Source: Actinomycetes bacterium (GTDB lineage: Bacteria; Actinomycetota; Acidimicrobiia; Acidimicrobiales; RAAP-2). From it: a stretch of DNA of 64,000 nt. The notes beneath the pieces were generated by a model. That model had not been told where the DNA came from. It was given only the letters and a program-made list of their open reading frames with translations, and ran no database searches. This document shows, piece by piece, positions 45,605 to 64,000 of this stretch. Made by a program: the position numbers and the translations under genes. Position 1 is the stretch's first letter, and the number at the start of each line of letters is the position of its first letter. The DNA lies in NCBI GenBank assembly GCA_021846325.1, contig JAJZBX010000005.1, forward strand, positions 62,001 to 126,000, in the 5' to 3' direction.

Positions 45605-45690
45605 CCCTAATCGTCTCGAAATTCACGACAAGGCCCACCGTAGCGGACGTCTCGCGCGCGAGCCTACAGTTGGCGTTCGAGGAGGCTTTC

Positions 45691-46029
45691 ATGCTTGTCA
45701 CGACCACGAATGATGTGGCCGACCACCGGATCGTCAAGGTGCTCGGCGAAGTCAACGGGCTCACCGTGCACACCCGAAACGTTGGCGCACAGCTCGGCGC
45801 GACGTTCAAGGCGCTCGGCGGTGGCGAGTTGCGCGGACTGACCAAACAGCTCCAGCAGTCGCGCGCCGAAGCCCTCGAACGGATGTCCGACAATGCCCGG
45901 GACATGGGCGCCAACGCCGTCATCGCGATGCGTTACGACTCCAACGAGCTGGCCAACACGTTCCAGGAGATTCTCGCCTACGGCACGGCGGTGGTGATCG
46001 AGCCACTAGCCGCGGGCGCTACCGGATGA
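45691..46029 (+). CDS. YbjQ/UPF0145 heavy-metal-binding domain protein
   Basis: VTTTNDVADHRIVKVLGEVNGLTVHTRNVGAQLGATFKALGGGELRGLTKQLQQSRAEALERMSDNARDMGANAVIAMRYDSNEL. Confidence 0.9.
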   Translation: MLVTTTNDVADHRIVKVLGEVNGLTVHTRNVGAQLGATFKALGGGELRGLTKQLQQSRAEALERMSDNARDMGANAVIAMRYDSNELANTFQEILAYGTAVVIEPLAAGATG

Positions 46030-47327
46030 TTCCGATACTCACGACCGAGGCGATGCGACGCGCCGACGCGCGCGCGGTGGCTCGGCGCGGGGTGGACGCG
46101 CTGGTGCGCGACGCCGGGACCGCCATCGCACTCGTCGCGATCTCCCAGTTGCGTGCCACCTACGGTGCGCGCGTCGCCGTCCTGGTCGGCCCCGGCCTCA
46201 ATGGTGCCGACGGCCGCGTCGCCGCTGAACAGCTGGCCCGGCGCGGCGCCCGCGTCGACACCGTGGAAGTCGCCCACCAACCAGCCTCCTTACGTGGTTA
46301 CGACCTGGTCATCGACGCCGCCTTTGGACTCGGCTGCTCGCGCGCCTACCGGGCACCGCACGTCGCCCCGACCACCACGGTCGTCGCGGCGGACCTCCCG
46401 TCCGGGGTGAACGCCGACACCGGCGAGGTCCTCGGCCAACCGCTCAAGGCCCACGTCACCGTTGCCCTGGGGGCGCTCAAACCGGCTCACCTGACGGGCC
46501 ACGCCGCGGCGTACGTCGGAGAACTGCGCGTCGCGAACCTCGGCATCGCCTGCGACGGCGACGACGGGCTCGTCGAATTCGCCGACCTCGCGGGCTTCGT
46601 GCGCTGGAGCCGCGACGACCACAAGTGGGACCACGCCATCGACGTCATCGCGGGGTCGGCGCTCATGCCCGGCGCGGCGGACCTCGTGACGCGCGGCGCC
46701 CTGGCGGGCGGAGCTTCGATGATCCGACTGACCAGCCGCGACGACGTGGCGTCGCTGGTGGCGATCGCCAGTGAAGTCGTTCGCACCAGTGGGCCACCGG
46801 ACCGGCGAAGTCGGGCGATCGTCGCTGGTCCGGGCCTCGGCAGCGACGCGGCCGCTTGGCTCGCGACCAAACTGGGCGACGTGAGCGTTCCCGTCGTGCT
46901 CGACGCCGACGGGCTCGACGAGCGCGTCCTCAGCGTGCGCCGCGACGAACCCTGGGTCCTCACCCCGCACGACGGCGAGTACGAGCGGATCGTGGGCTCG
47001 AGCCCGCCGGCCGACCGGTTCGAGGCCGCTCGGGCACTCGCTCGTTCTTCCGGCTGCGTCACGCTGCTCAAGGGGCCCACGACCGTGGTCGCCCACCCCG
47101 ACGGGCGACTGCGCGTCATTCAGTCCGGGACCAGCGCGCTCGCGACCGCGGGGACCGGTGACGTTCTCGCTGGACTCATCGGCGCGAGCATCGCTCGCGG
47201 CCACGATCCGCTCGACGCCGCGGCGCTCGGCGCCTTCATCCACGGCGCCGCGGGCGCCCGGCTGACCCGTTACGCCCGGTCTTCGGATCTGCCCGACGCC
47301 ATCGCTCGCGTACTCGCGGACCTTTGA
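46026..47327 (+). CDS. Bifunctional ADP-dependent NAD(P)H-hydrate dehydratase/epimerase
   Basis: N-term YjeF-like VLVGPGLNGADGRVAAEQLA; C-term TPHDGEYERIVG, TLLKGPTTVV, TAGTGDVLAGLIGA. Confidence 0.9.
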   Translation: MIPILTTEAMRRADARAVARRGVDALVRDAGTAIALVAISQLRATYGARVAVLVGPGLNGADGRVAAEQLARRGARVDTVEVAHQPASLRGYDLVIDAAFGLGCSRAYRAPHVAPTTTVVAADLPSGVNADTGEVLGQPLKAHVTVALGALKPAHLTGHAAAYVGELRVANLGIACDGDDGLVEFADLAGFVRWSRDDHKWDHAIDVIAGSALMPGAADLVTRGALAGGASMIRLTSRDDVASLVAIASEVVRTSGPPDRRSRAIVAGPGLGSDAAAWLATKLGDVSVPVVLDADGLDERVLSVRRDEPWVLTPHDGEYERIVGSSPPADRFEAARALARSSGCVTLLKGPTTVVAHPDGRLRVIQSGTSALATAGTGDVLAGLIGASIARGHDPLDAAALGAFIHGAAGARLTRYARSSDLPDAIARVLADL

Positions 47328-56043: not shown

Positions 56044-56445
56044 GTGGCCTCTGGGGATGAATCGATGGACCTCGCGCTCGCGGCGTCGACGCTGCGCGCG
56101 AACGGCTCTGACTTCCAGGCGTTGCTGGGAGCGCTCGTCGATGGACTCGCCGACGCCCTCGGCGAACGACTGCAAACGACGCTCGCCGGAGGGCGCTTTC
56201 GAAAGTCGAGTGAGTACCGCTCGGTACGCATCGTTGTGGGCGACGAACACTTTGAGGCCGCCGTCGAAGGTGCGAGCCTGCACTGTGGGGTCGCCCATCT
56301 CTCTGGCGGCATTCGGATTCGCAACGAGGCGCTCGACACGAACGAGTGGATCAACCGCCTCGTCGGGTCACTCGCGAACGAGGCCGCCCGTAGTGATTCG
56401 GCTCGCCAAGCCCTAGAACATCTTGTCATCGGAGGAAACCAGTGA
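56044..56445 (+). CDS. Unknown 133-aa protein, first gene of YbjQ-module operon
   Basis: GTG start, GTGA overlap with next gene; no recognised domain. Confidence 0.7.
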   Translation: MASGDESMDLALAASTLRANGSDFQALLGALVDGLADALGERLQTTLAGGRFRKSSEYRSVRIVVGDEHFEAAVEGASLHCGVAHLSGGIRIRNEALDTNEWINRLVGSLANEAARSDSARQALEHLVIGGNQ

Positions 56446-57239
56446 GCGATACCGTCAACGACCTACCCGAGGCCACGGGCCACCGACTAGCCGAGCTCGA
56501 GCACGGACTCTTCACGTCCGACCTCTCGGTGAACGAGTTCCTCCTCGTGAAGGAGGCCGGCTTCCATCCGGTCGGCTTCGTCATGGGCTCGTCCATCTAC
56601 CACACCGGGATCCAAACGCGTAAGTGGAGCCAGAGTCAGGAATTGACGAAGCTCACCGAAGCGATGTACAACGCGCGCGAACTCGCGATGACGCGTATGG
56701 AGGAGGAGGCGGCGGCACTCGGTGCCGACGGTGTCGTCGGCGTGCGACTCGACGTCAACTACTACGAGTGGGGCAAGGACGCCGCCGAGTTCATTGCCGT
56801 GGGCACCGCCGTGAAGGCCGAAGACGGCGTCTCGAGACGAAACAAGCTCGGCAAGCCGTTCACGTCTGACCTATCGGGCCAGGACTTTTGGACCCTCGCC
56901 CAGACGGGGTACGCCCCCCAAGGGCTCGTCATGGGCACGTGCGTCTACCACATCGCGCACCGCGGACTCGGCCAGGCGCTCAGCACGACGGGCCAGAACG
57001 TCGAACTGCCGAACTTCACCCAGGCGCTCTACGAAGCCCGCGAACTCGCGATGACCCGCATGCAGGACGAGTCCGCCCAACTCGGTGCCACCGGCATCGT
57101 CGGCGTGCGCCTGGAGGAGAAGTCTCACCAGTGGGGCTCGCACACCATCGAGTTCCTCGCCATCGGCACGGCCGTGACTAAGGGCACCGAATCGGTCACG
57201 CTGCCCACCCCGACCACCATCATCTCGCTCGACAACTGA
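56442..57239 (+). CDS. Tandem (two-module) YbjQ/heavy-metal-binding-like protein
   Basis: FHPVGFVMGSSIYHTG...ARELAMTRMEEEAAALGADGVVGVRLDVNYYEWG and YAPQGLVMGTCVYHIA...ARELAMTRMQDESAQLGATGIVGVRLEEKSHQWG. Confidence 0.82.
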   Translation: MSDTVNDLPEATGHRLAELEHGLFTSDLSVNEFLLVKEAGFHPVGFVMGSSIYHTGIQTRKWSQSQELTKLTEAMYNARELAMTRMEEEAAALGADGVVGVRLDVNYYEWGKDAAEFIAVGTAVKAEDGVSRRNKLGKPFTSDLSGQDFWTLAQTGYAPQGLVMGTCVYHIAHRGLGQALSTTGQNVELPNFTQALYEARELAMTRMQDESAQLGATGIVGVRLEEKSHQWGSHTIEFLAIGTAVTKGTESVTLPTPTTIISLDN

Positions 57240-58093
57240 TGGTCGCGAACCCCGTCGCCGCCGGCTTCTCGTCGGGCCTCAGCGTCGCCGACTTCGCGGC
57301 GTGCCTGTCGATGGGCCTCGAGCCAGTCGGACTCGTCCAGGGATTCTGCGCCATGCAGGCCGGCGGCTTCGCCATGGGCCTGACCCAGATGGGCCAGCCG
57401 ATGGGGGGACAAGGAGGCTACGTCGAGAACTACCAGTGCCCCCACGGCATGGTCGGCGGCGAGCACCGAATGTGGGGCCAGAACTACGAGCAGACCTGGG
57501 TTGAGCAGTCGTGGTCCGGTGGCTTCACCGCCGCGCTGGATCGCATGCGTGACGAGGCGACGCGCCTGGGTGCGCACGGCGTCGTCGGCGTCCTCGACAC
57601 CGAGACCGCACTCGTGGGCGCCGGTGTTGTCGAGTTCCACCTACGCGGCACCGCGGTGCGGGTAGTCGACGCGACGTCCACCAACGCGCCGTGGACGACG
57701 TACCTCGCCGGGCAGCGTCTGGTGAAACTGTTCGAATCGGGATTCGCTCCGGTCTCGGTCGTGGCGGTCACCGCATCGGTGCGCGTGTACGCCTACTGCA
57801 TCACCGAGTACCTCATGGGCGGCGGCGGCGTGAACGTCTGGTCGTCAAACTCCTCATCGGTCGAGATCAATCAGATCGTGCGCGCGCAGTCGCTATCGCG
57901 TGACCTCGCTCGATCGATGGCGCGCACCCAGCTGCACGGCGACGATCTGCACGCCGCGCAGCTCGACGTCGTGGACCGCGAGCACGAGCGCGGCGACCTC
58001 GAGATCGTGTCGACGCTGCGCGGGAACCGCGTGCGCCGATTTCGCAGCTTCGAGTCGCTCCCCATCCCTCAGCCGACGGTGCGGCTCACGTGA
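57239..58093 (+). CDS. Tandem YbjQ-like protein (second paralog)
   Basis: LEPVGLVQGFCAMQAG...ALDRMRDEATRLGAHGVVGVLDTETALV and FAPVSVVAVTASVRVYAYCITEYLMGG. Confidence 0.75.
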   Translation: MVANPVAAGFSSGLSVADFAACLSMGLEPVGLVQGFCAMQAGGFAMGLTQMGQPMGGQGGYVENYQCPHGMVGGEHRMWGQNYEQTWVEQSWSGGFTAALDRMRDEATRLGAHGVVGVLDTETALVGAGVVEFHLRGTAVRVVDATSTNAPWTTYLAGQRLVKLFESGFAPVSVVAVTASVRVYAYCITEYLMGGGGVNVWSSNSSSVEINQIVRAQSLSRDLARSMARTQLHGDDLHAAQLDVVDREHERGDLEIVSTLRGNRVRRFRSFESLPIPQPTVRLT

Positions 58094-58920
58094 GCGCCGC
58101 ACCACGCGACGATCTGGTGGCCCTGGTACGCGAGGCGGTCGCGTCACTCGAATCCAAGGCGACGTCGTCGACGTCGATGACGTCGGATCTCTCACTGGAC
58201 GAGGAGTTCAATCTTCACGCCATCGGTTGGGAAGCGGTCGAACTGGTGAGCGGCTATTCGGCGTTCTCGACACCGATGGGTGCGTGGAGCTGGGGACAGG
58301 GTGAGATCACTTCGGCGACCGAGGCGCACGCCAACGCGTTCGCGAGTGCGATACAGCGCCTGCACCACGAAGCGGCCGCGGCCGGTGGCCACGGTGTGGT
58401 GGGCGTCCACATCGAGCGATCGATCTTCTCCACCCACACCGCCGTCTCACTCATCGGCACCGCCGTGCGACCCATCGGGGCGAGTCGCGTCGGTGACGAC
58501 CACGTCTTCGTCTCCGACCTGTCCGCGCGCGACTTCGCCCGACTCGTACTGGCTGGCTGGGAGCCCCTGGGCCTCGCGACCGGCGCCAGCTTCGTCTACG
58601 CCCCCCGGCGCACCATCGGGGCGGCGCTCGCCCAACAGTCCCAGAACGTCGAGCTGACCAACTTCACCGAAGCCATCTACGCCGCGCGCGAACTCGCCAT
58701 GGAACGCATGCAGCGATCGGCCATCGACCTGCACGGGTCCGGCGTCGTCGAAGTCAAGGTCGTCGAGGGTCCGATGGCCTTCGCCGCCCACGCCGTTGGC
58801 TTTACCGCTTGGGGTACCGTCGTGCGTCTCGCCGCCGACCAACACCGCCCCATGAACCCCGCGCTCGTGGTCTCACTGGACGATCCAGTGGTGACGTTTG
58901 ACGCAGCCACGTTGGGCTGA
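58090..58920 (+). CDS. Tandem YbjQ-like protein (third paralog)
   Basis: WEAVELVSGYSAFST...AIQRLHHEAAAAGGHGVVGVHIERS and WEPLGLATGASFVYAPRR...ARELAMERMQRSAIDLHGSGVVEVKVVEG. Confidence 0.8.
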   Translation: MSAAPRDDLVALVREAVASLESKATSSTSMTSDLSLDEEFNLHAIGWEAVELVSGYSAFSTPMGAWSWGQGEITSATEAHANAFASAIQRLHHEAAAAGGHGVVGVHIERSIFSTHTAVSLIGTAVRPIGASRVGDDHVFVSDLSARDFARLVLAGWEPLGLATGASFVYAPRRTIGAALAQQSQNVELTNFTEAIYAARELAMERMQRSAIDLHGSGVVEVKVVEGPMAFAAHAVGFTAWGTVVRLAADQHRPMNPALVVSLDDPVVTFDAATLG

Positions 58921-60891: not shown

Positions 60892-63800
60892 CTACGCAGC
60901 CACGGTGTAGATCGAGCGTCCGTCGTCCCAGTAACTGTCGAAGACATGCTGGTAGACGACGTCACACTTCTGTGCGTAGATCGGCCGCGTGAAGGCGTCT
61001 GGCAGGCGGTCGAGGATCTCTTCGACGGTTACGCGTACCGACGCCCGAGTCGCCTGCTCCTTGCGCCAGTCCAAGACGATCTTGTCGCGCTTCAAGACTT
61101 CAAGGAGCTCCGCAGCTACACGCTTCACCTGCGCGGTCTCGTTGTCGGAGAGCTCCGGGGCCGGCCTTGTCAGAATATCGAAGATGGCCAGTTGCTCTTC
61201 GCTGAGTCCTTCCGCGAGCGAACGGGCCTCCTCTTGAGTGAGGGCGTTGCTGAAGTCGAGCAGCTGCTGGAAGAAGGTTTCGACGTTGATGCTCCCGGCG
61301 TTGTAGTCCTCTACCAGTTTCTCGAACCGCTCTACTAGGTCGACACGAGCAGGGTTGAGCCGAACGAGGGCTGCAACCTTTGCTGAGAGCAGCGAACGAA
61401 GTCGCTGGGCCGCTGTACGTGGGCGCCCTCGCTTGAAGGCCTCCTCGAGACCCTTCCAGTCCACTGCGCCCAGATCGAAGAGGGCCTCTACTTCGCTATC
61501 TGGGATCAAGTACTCGTTCGCCGCGACGGACTCGTCGAGGAGTTGCTCGATTCGTCCCATGACTCCCGAGATATTGGGTGGCTCGATATTCGCCGAGATT
61601 CCGTCAGCGAGGAACTTGGCCACGGCGCGTGCGCGACTGAACTCGTTGGCGCGGACGTCGGGCAGGATTGCCTTGTAGAGGCGATTGACCAGTGCAGCAC
61701 GCGAGGTAAAGGCGATTCGCTCGTCATCGTCCACCATCAGCATCTCGACGGCCTCTTTACCGGCGGCCACCAACGCGAAGCCGCTCAGGCGTCCCAGAGC
61801 GTCGAGGTCGACGTCACGCGCCAGACAGAAGGACCGGAGGTCATCGATGGCTTCTCGGGTCGCCTCCACCAGTTGCCCCTTCTCCTCGACGGGCAACTCA
61901 CCCGACGCGCCGCCCACCGCGTAGATAGCCAGAGCCGCCTGCAGGTTGCGAAAGACGTCGACGTAGGCGACGACGAGCCCGTTGTTCTTCTCTGGGAAGA
62001 CGCGGTTGGCCCGGGTGATGGTCTGCATCAGGGTGTGGTTCCGCAGTGGCTTGTCAAGATACACGGTCGAGAGCGAGGGGACGTCGAAACCTGTCGTCCA
62101 CATCGAACAGACGAAGGCCAGGCGAAATGGATCCGAGGCGTTCTTGAACTTGTCCTCGAGGTTCTCTTCGACCATTCGCCTGCGGTGCGTCGAAATGTCC
62201 AGGCCGCGCTCGGCCATTTCCGCGATCTCGTTCTGCGACTGAGAGATGACTACGGCCATGTCTGTCTCGCGCATGAAGGCGACCTCGCGCTGTACGAGGT
62301 CCACCTCCTCGTCGGTAAGCCCTCCTCCGTGGAGGGACTCTTCGTTCCTTTGAAGGCGCTCTCGCCAGAATCGCTGGACCTTCTCAAAGGTGCGCACTGT
62401 CGTCACCTTGTCGATGGAGACGACCATTGCCTTACCGGGAAAGCCGCGACCCAGAAAGTGATTCACAATGTCGCGGGCTACCGCCTCAAGCCGGTCGTCT
62501 CGGGTGATGAGCTCGTACTGCTGGCCGAGCGCCCGACCAAGTTGACGTTCCTGGTCCTCGTCGAGACCGGCCTCTTCAACAATGGCCATCAGATCGTCGC
62601 CGAAGGTCGGGTTCTCGATTTCGAGTTGCGGAATCCGGTTCTCGTAGTAGAGCGGGACCGTCGCGTGGTCGGAAGCCGAGGCGGCAAAATTGTAGACCGA
62701 GACGTAGTCGCCGAAAACCTCGCGGGTACGTTCTTCGCCAGCGATGAGCGGTGTCCCGGTGAAGCCCAAGAAGCCAGCGTTCGGAAGCGCGTTACGCATG
62801 TTGAGCGCCAGCGTGTCGTACTGAGTGCGGTGAGCCTCATCGGTGATGACGATGACGTCATCTCTCTCGGAGATGACCGGGTGCACCTCACCCTTCTCAG
62901 TGCGGAACTTCTGGATCAGGGTGAAGACGTAGCGGTGATCCTCGGCCAGGAGTTGTCTTAAGTGAGCAGAGCCGGTGGCGCGCATGTGCTTCTCGGTGAT
63001 GACTCCGGCGTAGGTGAACTCCTTATAGGCCTGCTCGTCTAGGTCGTCGCGGTCGGTGACGATGACGAAGGACCAGTTCCCGGGCATCTTGCGCAACACC
63101 TTCTGGGAGAAGAAGAGCATCGACATCGTCTTGCCCGAACCCTGGGTGTGCCAGAAGACTCCGAGCTTGCCACGCTCTTCCGGCGGCGCAAGGCGCAACT
63201 CACCTAGACGGGCCAGCGCGCTGTTGACTCCCAGGTACTGATGGTTACGGGCGAGAAGTTTGATGAACTTACTAGGGAGATCCTGGAACGCCACGAAGTT
63301 CTCGAGGATGTCCAGAAGGCGTTCCTTCGTGCACATTCCGCGAATGACCGTTTCCAACGAGACAACACCCTGTTCGCCCTCGGAGTTGATCTTCTTCCAT
63401 TCCGAGAAGAATTCCCAGTCCGATGTGATGGTGCCAACTTTGCTCTCGGCGCCATTCGACAGGAGGATGAACCCGTTGGCTGCAAACAAGTGCGGGACAG
63501 TGTCCCGATAGTCGCTGAGGTTCTCGTCGTAGGCGTTCTTCAGGTTCTTGTGTGATGCCTTGAGTTCGATGAAGACGAGCGGTATTCCATTGACGAACCC
63601 GACGAGGTCGGCCCGGCGGTGATAGAGATCGGAGTGGACCCAGAACTGGGAGACAACCAGGAAGTCGTTGTTCTCAGGGTTTGCCCAGTCGATGATCGAG
63701 AGACGCTCTGGCAGGGTCGATCCATCTGGCTGACGGACCGGTACCTCGACACGATCTCGCAGCAGCACGTGAATCTCTTGGTTGGCTCGTCCGTAGTGCA

Positions 63801-64000
63801 TCGCCGCGCGAGACCTCGTGACTTCGGTGACAGCCAACTCGACGGCCTCTGCTGGGACGCCTGGATTCAACCGCTCGATGGCAGCACGCAGTCGTTGGCT
63901 CAGAAAGACCTCGGCCCGATTGTCACGCCCGAGCGTTCCCGAGGGACCCATGGTCTCCTGCATTGCGTTCACGTGAGCCCAGCCGAGCTCTTCGAAGAGG
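60892..64000 (-). CDS. hsdR: Type I restriction-modification system endonuclease subunit HsdR, 5' end beyond window
   Basis: LVVSQFWVHSDLYHRRADLVGFVNGIPLVFIELKASHKN nuclease motif, FWHTQGSGKTMSMLFF, ITDEAHRTQYD, CSMWTTGFDVPSLSTVYLDKPLRNHTLMQTITRANRV; frame remains open (LFEELGWAHVNAMQETMG) to position 64000. Confidence 0.95.
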   Translation of the reverse strand, partial: LFEELGWAHVNAMQETMGPSGTLGRDNRAEVFLSQRLRAAIERLNPGVPAEAVELAVTEVTRSRAAMHYGRANQEIHVLLRDRVEVPVRQPDGSTLPERLSIIDWANPENNDFLVVSQFWVHSDLYHRRADLVGFVNGIPLVFIELKASHKNLKNAYDENLSDYRDTVPHLFAANGFILLSNGAESKVGTITSDWEFFSEWKKINSEGEQGVVSLETVIRGMCTKERLLDILENFVAFQDLPSKFIKLLARNHQYLGVNSALARLGELRLAPPEERGKLGVFWHTQGSGKTMSMLFFSQKVLRKMPGNWSFVIVTDRDDLDEQAYKEFTYAGVITEKHMRATGSAHLRQLLAEDHRYVFTLIQKFRTEKGEVHPVISERDDVIVITDEAHRTQYDTLALNMRNALPNAGFLGFTGTPLIAGEERTREVFGDYVSVYNFAASASDHATVPLYYENRIPQLEIENPTFGDDLMAIVEEAGLDEDQERQLGRALGQQYELITRDDRLEAVARDIVNHFLGRGFPGKAMVVSIDKVTTVRTFEKVQRFWRERLQRNEESLHGGGLTDEEVDLVQREVAFMRETDMAVVISQSQNEIAEMAERGLDISTHRRRMVEENLEDKFKNASDPFRLAFVCSMWTTGFDVPSLSTVYLDKPLRNHTLMQTITRANRVFPEKNNGLVVAYVDVFRNLQAALAIYAVGGASGELPVEEKGQLVEATREAIDDLRSFCLARDVDLDALGRLSGFALVAAGKEAVEMLMVDDDERIAFTSRAALVNRLYKAILPDVRANEFSRARAVAKFLADGISANIEPPNISGVMGRIEQLLDESVAANEYLIPDSEVEALFDLGAVDWKGLEEAFKRGRPRTAAQRLRSLLSAKVAALVRLNPARVDLVERFEKLVEDYNAGSINVETFFQQLLDFSNALTQEEARSLAEGLSEEQLAIFDILTRPAPELSDNETAQVKRVAAELLEVLKRDKIVLDWRKEQATRASVRVTVEEILDRLPDAFTRPIYAQKCDVVYQHVFDSYWDDGRSIYTVAA

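Follow-up and report, generated by a model that had tools for sequence, protein, structure and literature searches.

The window analysed here, a stretch of 64,000 nucleotides, belongs to a 2.28 Mb actinobacterial draft genome (97 contigs) whose closest relatives carry the label Acidimicrobiaceae and, judging by titles, were mostly obtained from acidic mines and peat. Between positions 56044 and 58920 it encodes a set of four overlapping genes on the + strand, which we call A, B, C and D. Three of them carry modules of the YbjQ family. The features are the following.

56044-56445, + strand: gene A, 133 aa, GTG start; an open reading frame whose GTG start is common to orthologues
56442-57239, + strand: gene B, 265 aa, GTG start; YbjQ doublet (Pfam 1.6e-25, two stretches)
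56505-56825, + strand: B module 1, residues 22-128, with the invariant His54
56853-57182, + strand: B module 2, residues 138-247, with the invariant Cys167, His170 and His234
57239-58093, + strand: gene C, 284 aa, ATG start; YbjQ doublet, with the motif CPH...H in an insert
57266-57667, + strand: C module 1, residues 10-143 (Pfam 9.1e-6; profile-profile 1.1e-17 to B module 1)
57437-57466, + strand: C motif Cys67-Pro68-His69...His76, invariant in 62/62 C proteins
57686-58048, + strand: C module 2, residues 150-270, divergent, predicted by hhalign and an AlphaFold2 model
58090-58920, + strand: gene D, 276 aa, GTG start; YbjQ doublet closest to B (Pfam 5.6e-13, two stretches)
58177-58476, + strand: D module 1, residues 30-129 (profile-profile 1.2e-17 to B module 1)
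58504-58833, + strand: D module 2, residues 139-248 (profile-profile 5.7e-34 to B module 2)

The junctions read GTGA between A and B, TGATG between B and C, and GTGA between C and D. An earlier note on this DNA had proposed a translationally coupled operon with these junctions, and the open reading frames bear out the arrangement. Co-translation is conserved as well. In a second collection of related loci, A and B overlap by 4 nt in 72/78 cases, B and C by 1 nt in 67/78 and C and D by 4 nt in 71/77. All four genes are under purifying selection: compared with a close relative, dN/dS is 0.15 for A, 0.026 for B, 0.14 for C and 0.17 for D. Hence, B is nearly frozen and the other three drift faster. 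Overlaps kept across loci, together with low dN/dS, indicate that the arrangement did not arise by chance.

YbjQ modules and candidate ligand residues

We compared the proteins with the Pfam family YbjQ_1/DUF74 (PF01906, cut-off 23 bits). B (90.2 bits), D (49.8 bits) and C (26.7 bits) all score above the cut-off, and the source genome has six separate matches above it, one of them a lone YbjQ gene. Pfam recovers two modules in B, two in D and only the first in C. The second module of C, which Pfam missed, is retrieved by profile-profile comparison (hhalign 5.5e-7 to B module 1 and 1.1e-7 to B module 2), and the AlphaFold2 model of C (mean pLDDT 86, pTM 0.84) displays two modules. Foldseek matched this model to the solved structures 1vr4 and 1y2i with a probability of 1.00, at an E-value of only about 2.5e-3. 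The fold is thus assigned by structure prediction for C, and by sequence for B and D. Together, B, C and D contain six YbjQ modules, the second of C being a prediction from profile and structural model. This agrees with the six modules of YbjQ/DUF74 fold that had been proposed from the sequence. A tree of 66 modules needs only two changes to set first modules apart from second ones, although few columns were available and many forks are open. This separation suggests that the doublet goes back to one fusion event, which preceded the split of B, C and D.

The window also encodes a lone single-domain YbjQ gene (45631-46029, PF01906 4.4e-34), which is only distant kin of the doublets. It overlaps the start of a gene at 46026-47327 resembling an NAD(P)H-hydrate repair enzyme.

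Several histidines and cysteines are strongly conserved. In B, His54, Cys167, His170 and His234 are invariant in 17/17 proteins, from the family of the source genome to mycobacteria and Streptomyces. C has a set of its own, with Cys67, His69, His76 and Cys187 in 62/62 proteins and Cys37 in 60/62. D keeps only His234 among the candidate residues of B. Binding of a metal or small ligand at these sites of B and C is plausible from the conservation, if still a tentative proposal; "heavy-metal-binding" is the family label of YbjQ_1/DUF74. The earlier note had read a YH motif as a ligand site lost in some copies, which then became structural. The conservation pattern is consistent with a putative loss in C and D, as the histidine is invariant only in B. 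For C, which carries its own invariant Cys/His set, a change to a structural role is not evident.

Gene A, the spread of the set and the pair in Mycobacterium tuberculosis

Direct searches with gene A of the window gave no matches of its own. Against DUF5073 (PF16817, curated cut-off 27 bits) it scores 13.1 bits (E 0.1) and its best relative 21.4 bits (E 2.7e-4), both below the cut-off. Hence, we call A DUF5073-like rather than a member. A broad profile of 18 A proteins aligns with DUF5073 at 9e-7 in hhalign, and a narrow family profile (A2) at only 0.02. Considering this alignment, the Pfam match of one member and the synteny in mycobacteria, we regard A as a remote homologue of DUF5073, a relationship read from sequence profiles. 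For A, AlphaFold2 predicts two helices, five strands and two further helices (pLDDT 80); neither the PDB nor a viral structure library gave a confident match to this model. We detected no transmembrane segment in A, where hydropathy over 19 residues peaks at 0.9.

The co-occurrence of A and B is more informative. Among 397 genomes of Actinomycetota, the 18-protein profile matches in 8, all of which are among the 11 encoding B (Fisher exact test, p 1e-14, ignoring kinship). The remaining three belong to a mycobacterial genus, where B is directly followed by a DUF5073 protein (PF16817, 1.1e-66). In this genus B and DUF5073 occur in the same 37/119 genomes, always side by side. Overall, in the class and phylum samples of Actinomycetota, each of the 19 genomes encoding B also has an A-type gene. 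One genome (G163) retains A at a distance of 40 kb from B; the link between the two is thus more than adjacency. The gene described in the earlier note as an unknown leader is therefore better seen as the constant, DUF5073-like partner of B, found before or after it. Co-occurrence and adjacency indicate here functional linkage, not contact. In one mycobacterial genome (G807:C19:29831-30971) an in-frame TGA splits B, and the adjoining DUF5073 gene is intact.

We then analysed 150 genomes of the family. B is matched at an E-value of 0.001 in 113 of them, weak matches to ordinary YbjQ included, and strongly in about 80, by a count of listed places. Across the family B is 78-97% identical. Malic enzyme, in those of the genomes that have it, is 52-89% identical and always below B (e.g. 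64% when B is at 85%). Family genomes devoid of the set tend to be small, which suggests that it is accessory and not essential. The order A-B-C-D is retained in the 80 loci of the second collection wherever the contig is long enough, and it recurs, CPH motif included, in a different family of this order (L152). The proposed four-gene order is thus conserved beyond the family. Two genomes with the full set (G273 and G368) encode in addition a second, lone B-type doublet without adjoining A, C or D (L159, L160).

At greater distances the same parts are re-ordered. Some loci have A-X-B (L153, L154, L156, L162-L164) and others X-B-A (L155, L157 and two Streptomyces plasmids, L170 and L171), where X is a divergent YbjQ doublet. 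Mycobacteria have A and B alone. Such re-ordering argues for functional linkage more strongly than an inherited gene order would. The pair reaches beyond Actinomycetota on the basis of one cyanobacterial plasmid of Aulosira laxa (AP018309.1; L172, 7400-9000), where A is followed by a broken copy of B with two in-frame stops. Among the diverse loci, we found no conserved gene outside A-D adjoining the set. Neighbouring genes therefore give no indication of function.

The mycobacterial pair has a counterpart in M. tuberculosis. Rv1761c, whose structure is PDB 2k3m, is nearly identical to the DUF5073 protein of the pair (8.9e-67). For Rv1762c, two putative heavy-metal-binding (DUF74) domains have been described, and a premature stop was reported in low-prevalence isolates of M. 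tuberculosis (PMC9846648). In M. bovis, the RD152 region is listed with a DUF5073 gene adjoining one for a heavy-metal-binding domain (PMC11449866). The pair A-B corresponds to Rv1761c-Rv1762c, where Rv1762c was matched through published descriptions and the mycobacterial loci, not by alignment. It is important to highlight that Rv1762c has consistently been reported in preparations of encapsulin of about 25 nm from M. tuberculosis (PMC8635971).

The proposed assembly and its alternatives

We propose that A-D encode a soluble, cytosolic, hetero-oligomeric particle, in which B is the core, A the obligate partner and C and D are paralogous subunits acquired later, a reading to which we give a probability of about 0.5. 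Its parts differ in strength: a physical complex is likely, a large size is about even, and binding of a metal or ligand is plausible but below an even chance. The multi-subunit reading draws on the conserved junctions, the low dN/dS of B, the co-occurrence of A and B, the re-ordered parts, the history of the doublets, the pentameric relatives and the invariant His/Cys residues. Solved single-domain relatives of YbjQ are homopentamers, and one pentameric relative changes fold between subunits (PMC2954204, PMC4092069). Since the relatives are pentameric, a chain of two such modules would have to join two pentamers, either stacking them or bridging neighbouring ones to give a larger assembly, closed or extended. 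B would be the invariant core and A its obligate partner; C and D would have arisen by duplication of the doublet and been added as specialized subunits. Lineages with A and B only, with one additional doublet and with all four genes are all present. Translational coupling would keep the subunits balanced, and the particle would most likely bind or buffer a metal or small ligand at the His/Cys sites of B and C.

The presence of Rv1762c in encapsulin preparations can be read in several ways. Since B has no need of encapsulin, the simplest is a large particle made by the protein itself, which sediments alongside encapsulin. Rv1762c might also be a contaminant, a loose associate or encapsulin cargo. 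We consider it unlikely that B/Rv1762c is an encapsulin accessory, bound to the shell or loaded into it, with A, C and D serving this link. The consistent finding of Rv1762c in these preparations (PMC8635971) would fit such a role. So would the distribution of B in the family, where it is present in 26/31 genomes with an encapsulin match (PF04454) and 54/119 without (Fisher exact test, p 1e-4, ignoring kinship and genome size, either of which may account for the enrichment in these 150 genomes). However, PF04454 was not found in 54/80 family genomes bearing B, and the A-D operon has no conserved outside neighbour. The source genome (about 94% complete) has no match to PF04454, the only encapsulin profile searched. 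A particle of modest size is a more serious alternative, possible though clearly behind an even chance. The modules would then make small soluble rings, either stacked pentamers or a pseudo-hexamer of the six modules of B, C and D, acting as a metal or ligand sensor or as a chaperone. Solved YbjQ relatives are indeed simple pentamers (PMC2954204), and the operon encodes just enough modules, six, to close one ring of six. Yet mycobacteria have a single doublet and many lineages two, so that six modules are not required, and small rings are unexpected in an ultracentrifuged fraction of about 25 nm, provided that Rv1762c is not carried into it by something else. At the other extreme, B/Rv1762c might form a closed icosahedral cage, a hitherto unrecognised protein nanocompartment of non-viral fold, in which A, C and D serve as cargo adaptors or specialized wall subunits and His/Cys sites form the lining. 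Twelve pentamers would amount to 60 modules, i.e. 30 two-module chains, one per edge of the icosahedron. This version of the particle is improbable, on a par with the encapsulin accessory.

The soluble particle that we favour is at odds with the study of Rv1761c as a membrane protein (PMC2396618, PMC6151718), which conflicts with a soluble complex and counts against this reading. 2k3m is a detergent structure of Rv1761c that may differ from the native state; for A, the remote relative of Rv1761c, the prediction is a soluble alpha/beta protein.

A horizontally spread defence or other mobile-element system would account for the patchy presence of the set and for its copies on Streptomyces and Aulosira plasmids, and in the window a type I restriction gene lies about 2 kb downstream. 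But PADLOC gives no match to A-D at 0.01, no relatives of B occur in the viral contigs or phage genomes searched, the loci have no conserved defence neighbours, and B, far from diversifying, is extremely conserved. This makes such a system very unlikely. In PHROGs, two unnamed families match B, one of which also matches D. The restriction gene (R subunit, HsdR; 60892-63972, - strand) gives no sign of belonging to A-D. Thiamin phosphate synthase activity is known from the YjbQ family (UPF0047), which is unrelated to YbjQ (UPF0145). We rejected a published statement that YbjQ members have this activity (PMC7084401) as probably a mix-up of the two names. This statement is what would favour a thiamin biosynthesis operon with YbjQ as the synthase; no thiamin genes are found near A-D, and we give this explanation almost no weight.

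These results matter because YbjQ/DUF74 is a widespread and structurally solved family with no established function. Here it forms the strictly conserved core of a set of several genes and is accompanied by a constant partner. Its function has thus become open to testing, as the partner, the stoichiometry and the residues that may bind a ligand can now be named. The results also link, as one module, Rv1761c, with a solved structure and an unexplained role, and Rv1762c, unexplained in nanocompartment preparations, and open both questions to study in harmless actinobacteria. If it is true that the doublets build cages or large rings, they would constitute a new kind of bacterial protein particle.

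Comparison with known systems

The fold and the domain are known. We found no paper describing the fused doublets, the co-translated paralogues and the constant DUF5073-like partner together as a system, subscription papers being outside the search. The earlier note's view of an undescribed system thus holds for the whole set but not for its core pair, already present in M. tuberculosis with a few scattered published observations.

The closest known proteins are single-domain YbjQ/UPF0145/DUF74 proteins (1vr4, 1y2i, 2gtc), which have the fold and the core motif ARELAMxRM...LGAxGVVGV...GTAV in common with the modules of the window. These are homopentamers of about 105 aa with one domain (PMC2954204), whereas in the window the modules are fused pairwise, in co-translated paralogues accompanied by a partner. 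The YbjQ fold is reportedly also common to DUF1471/RcsF and to archaeal selenium-binding proteins, some of which are pentamers (PMC4092069). However, these are mostly periplasmic stress proteins, and we found no sequence relation to the modules of the window. Encapsulin nanocompartments resemble B as a possible large particle and occur in the same preparations as Rv1762c (PMC8635971), but the HK97 fold of encapsulin is unrelated to the YbjQ fold of B, and encapsulin is not required for B to be present. Finally, Rv1761c-Rv1762c has, like A-B, a two-module YbjQ protein adjoining a DUF5073 protein, and mycobacterial B is about 48% identical to B of the window. The two differ in that A of the window is only remotely similar to mycobacterial DUF5073, and in their composition: the mycobacterial locus has B before A and neither C nor D, while the window has A before B and six modules in three paralogues.
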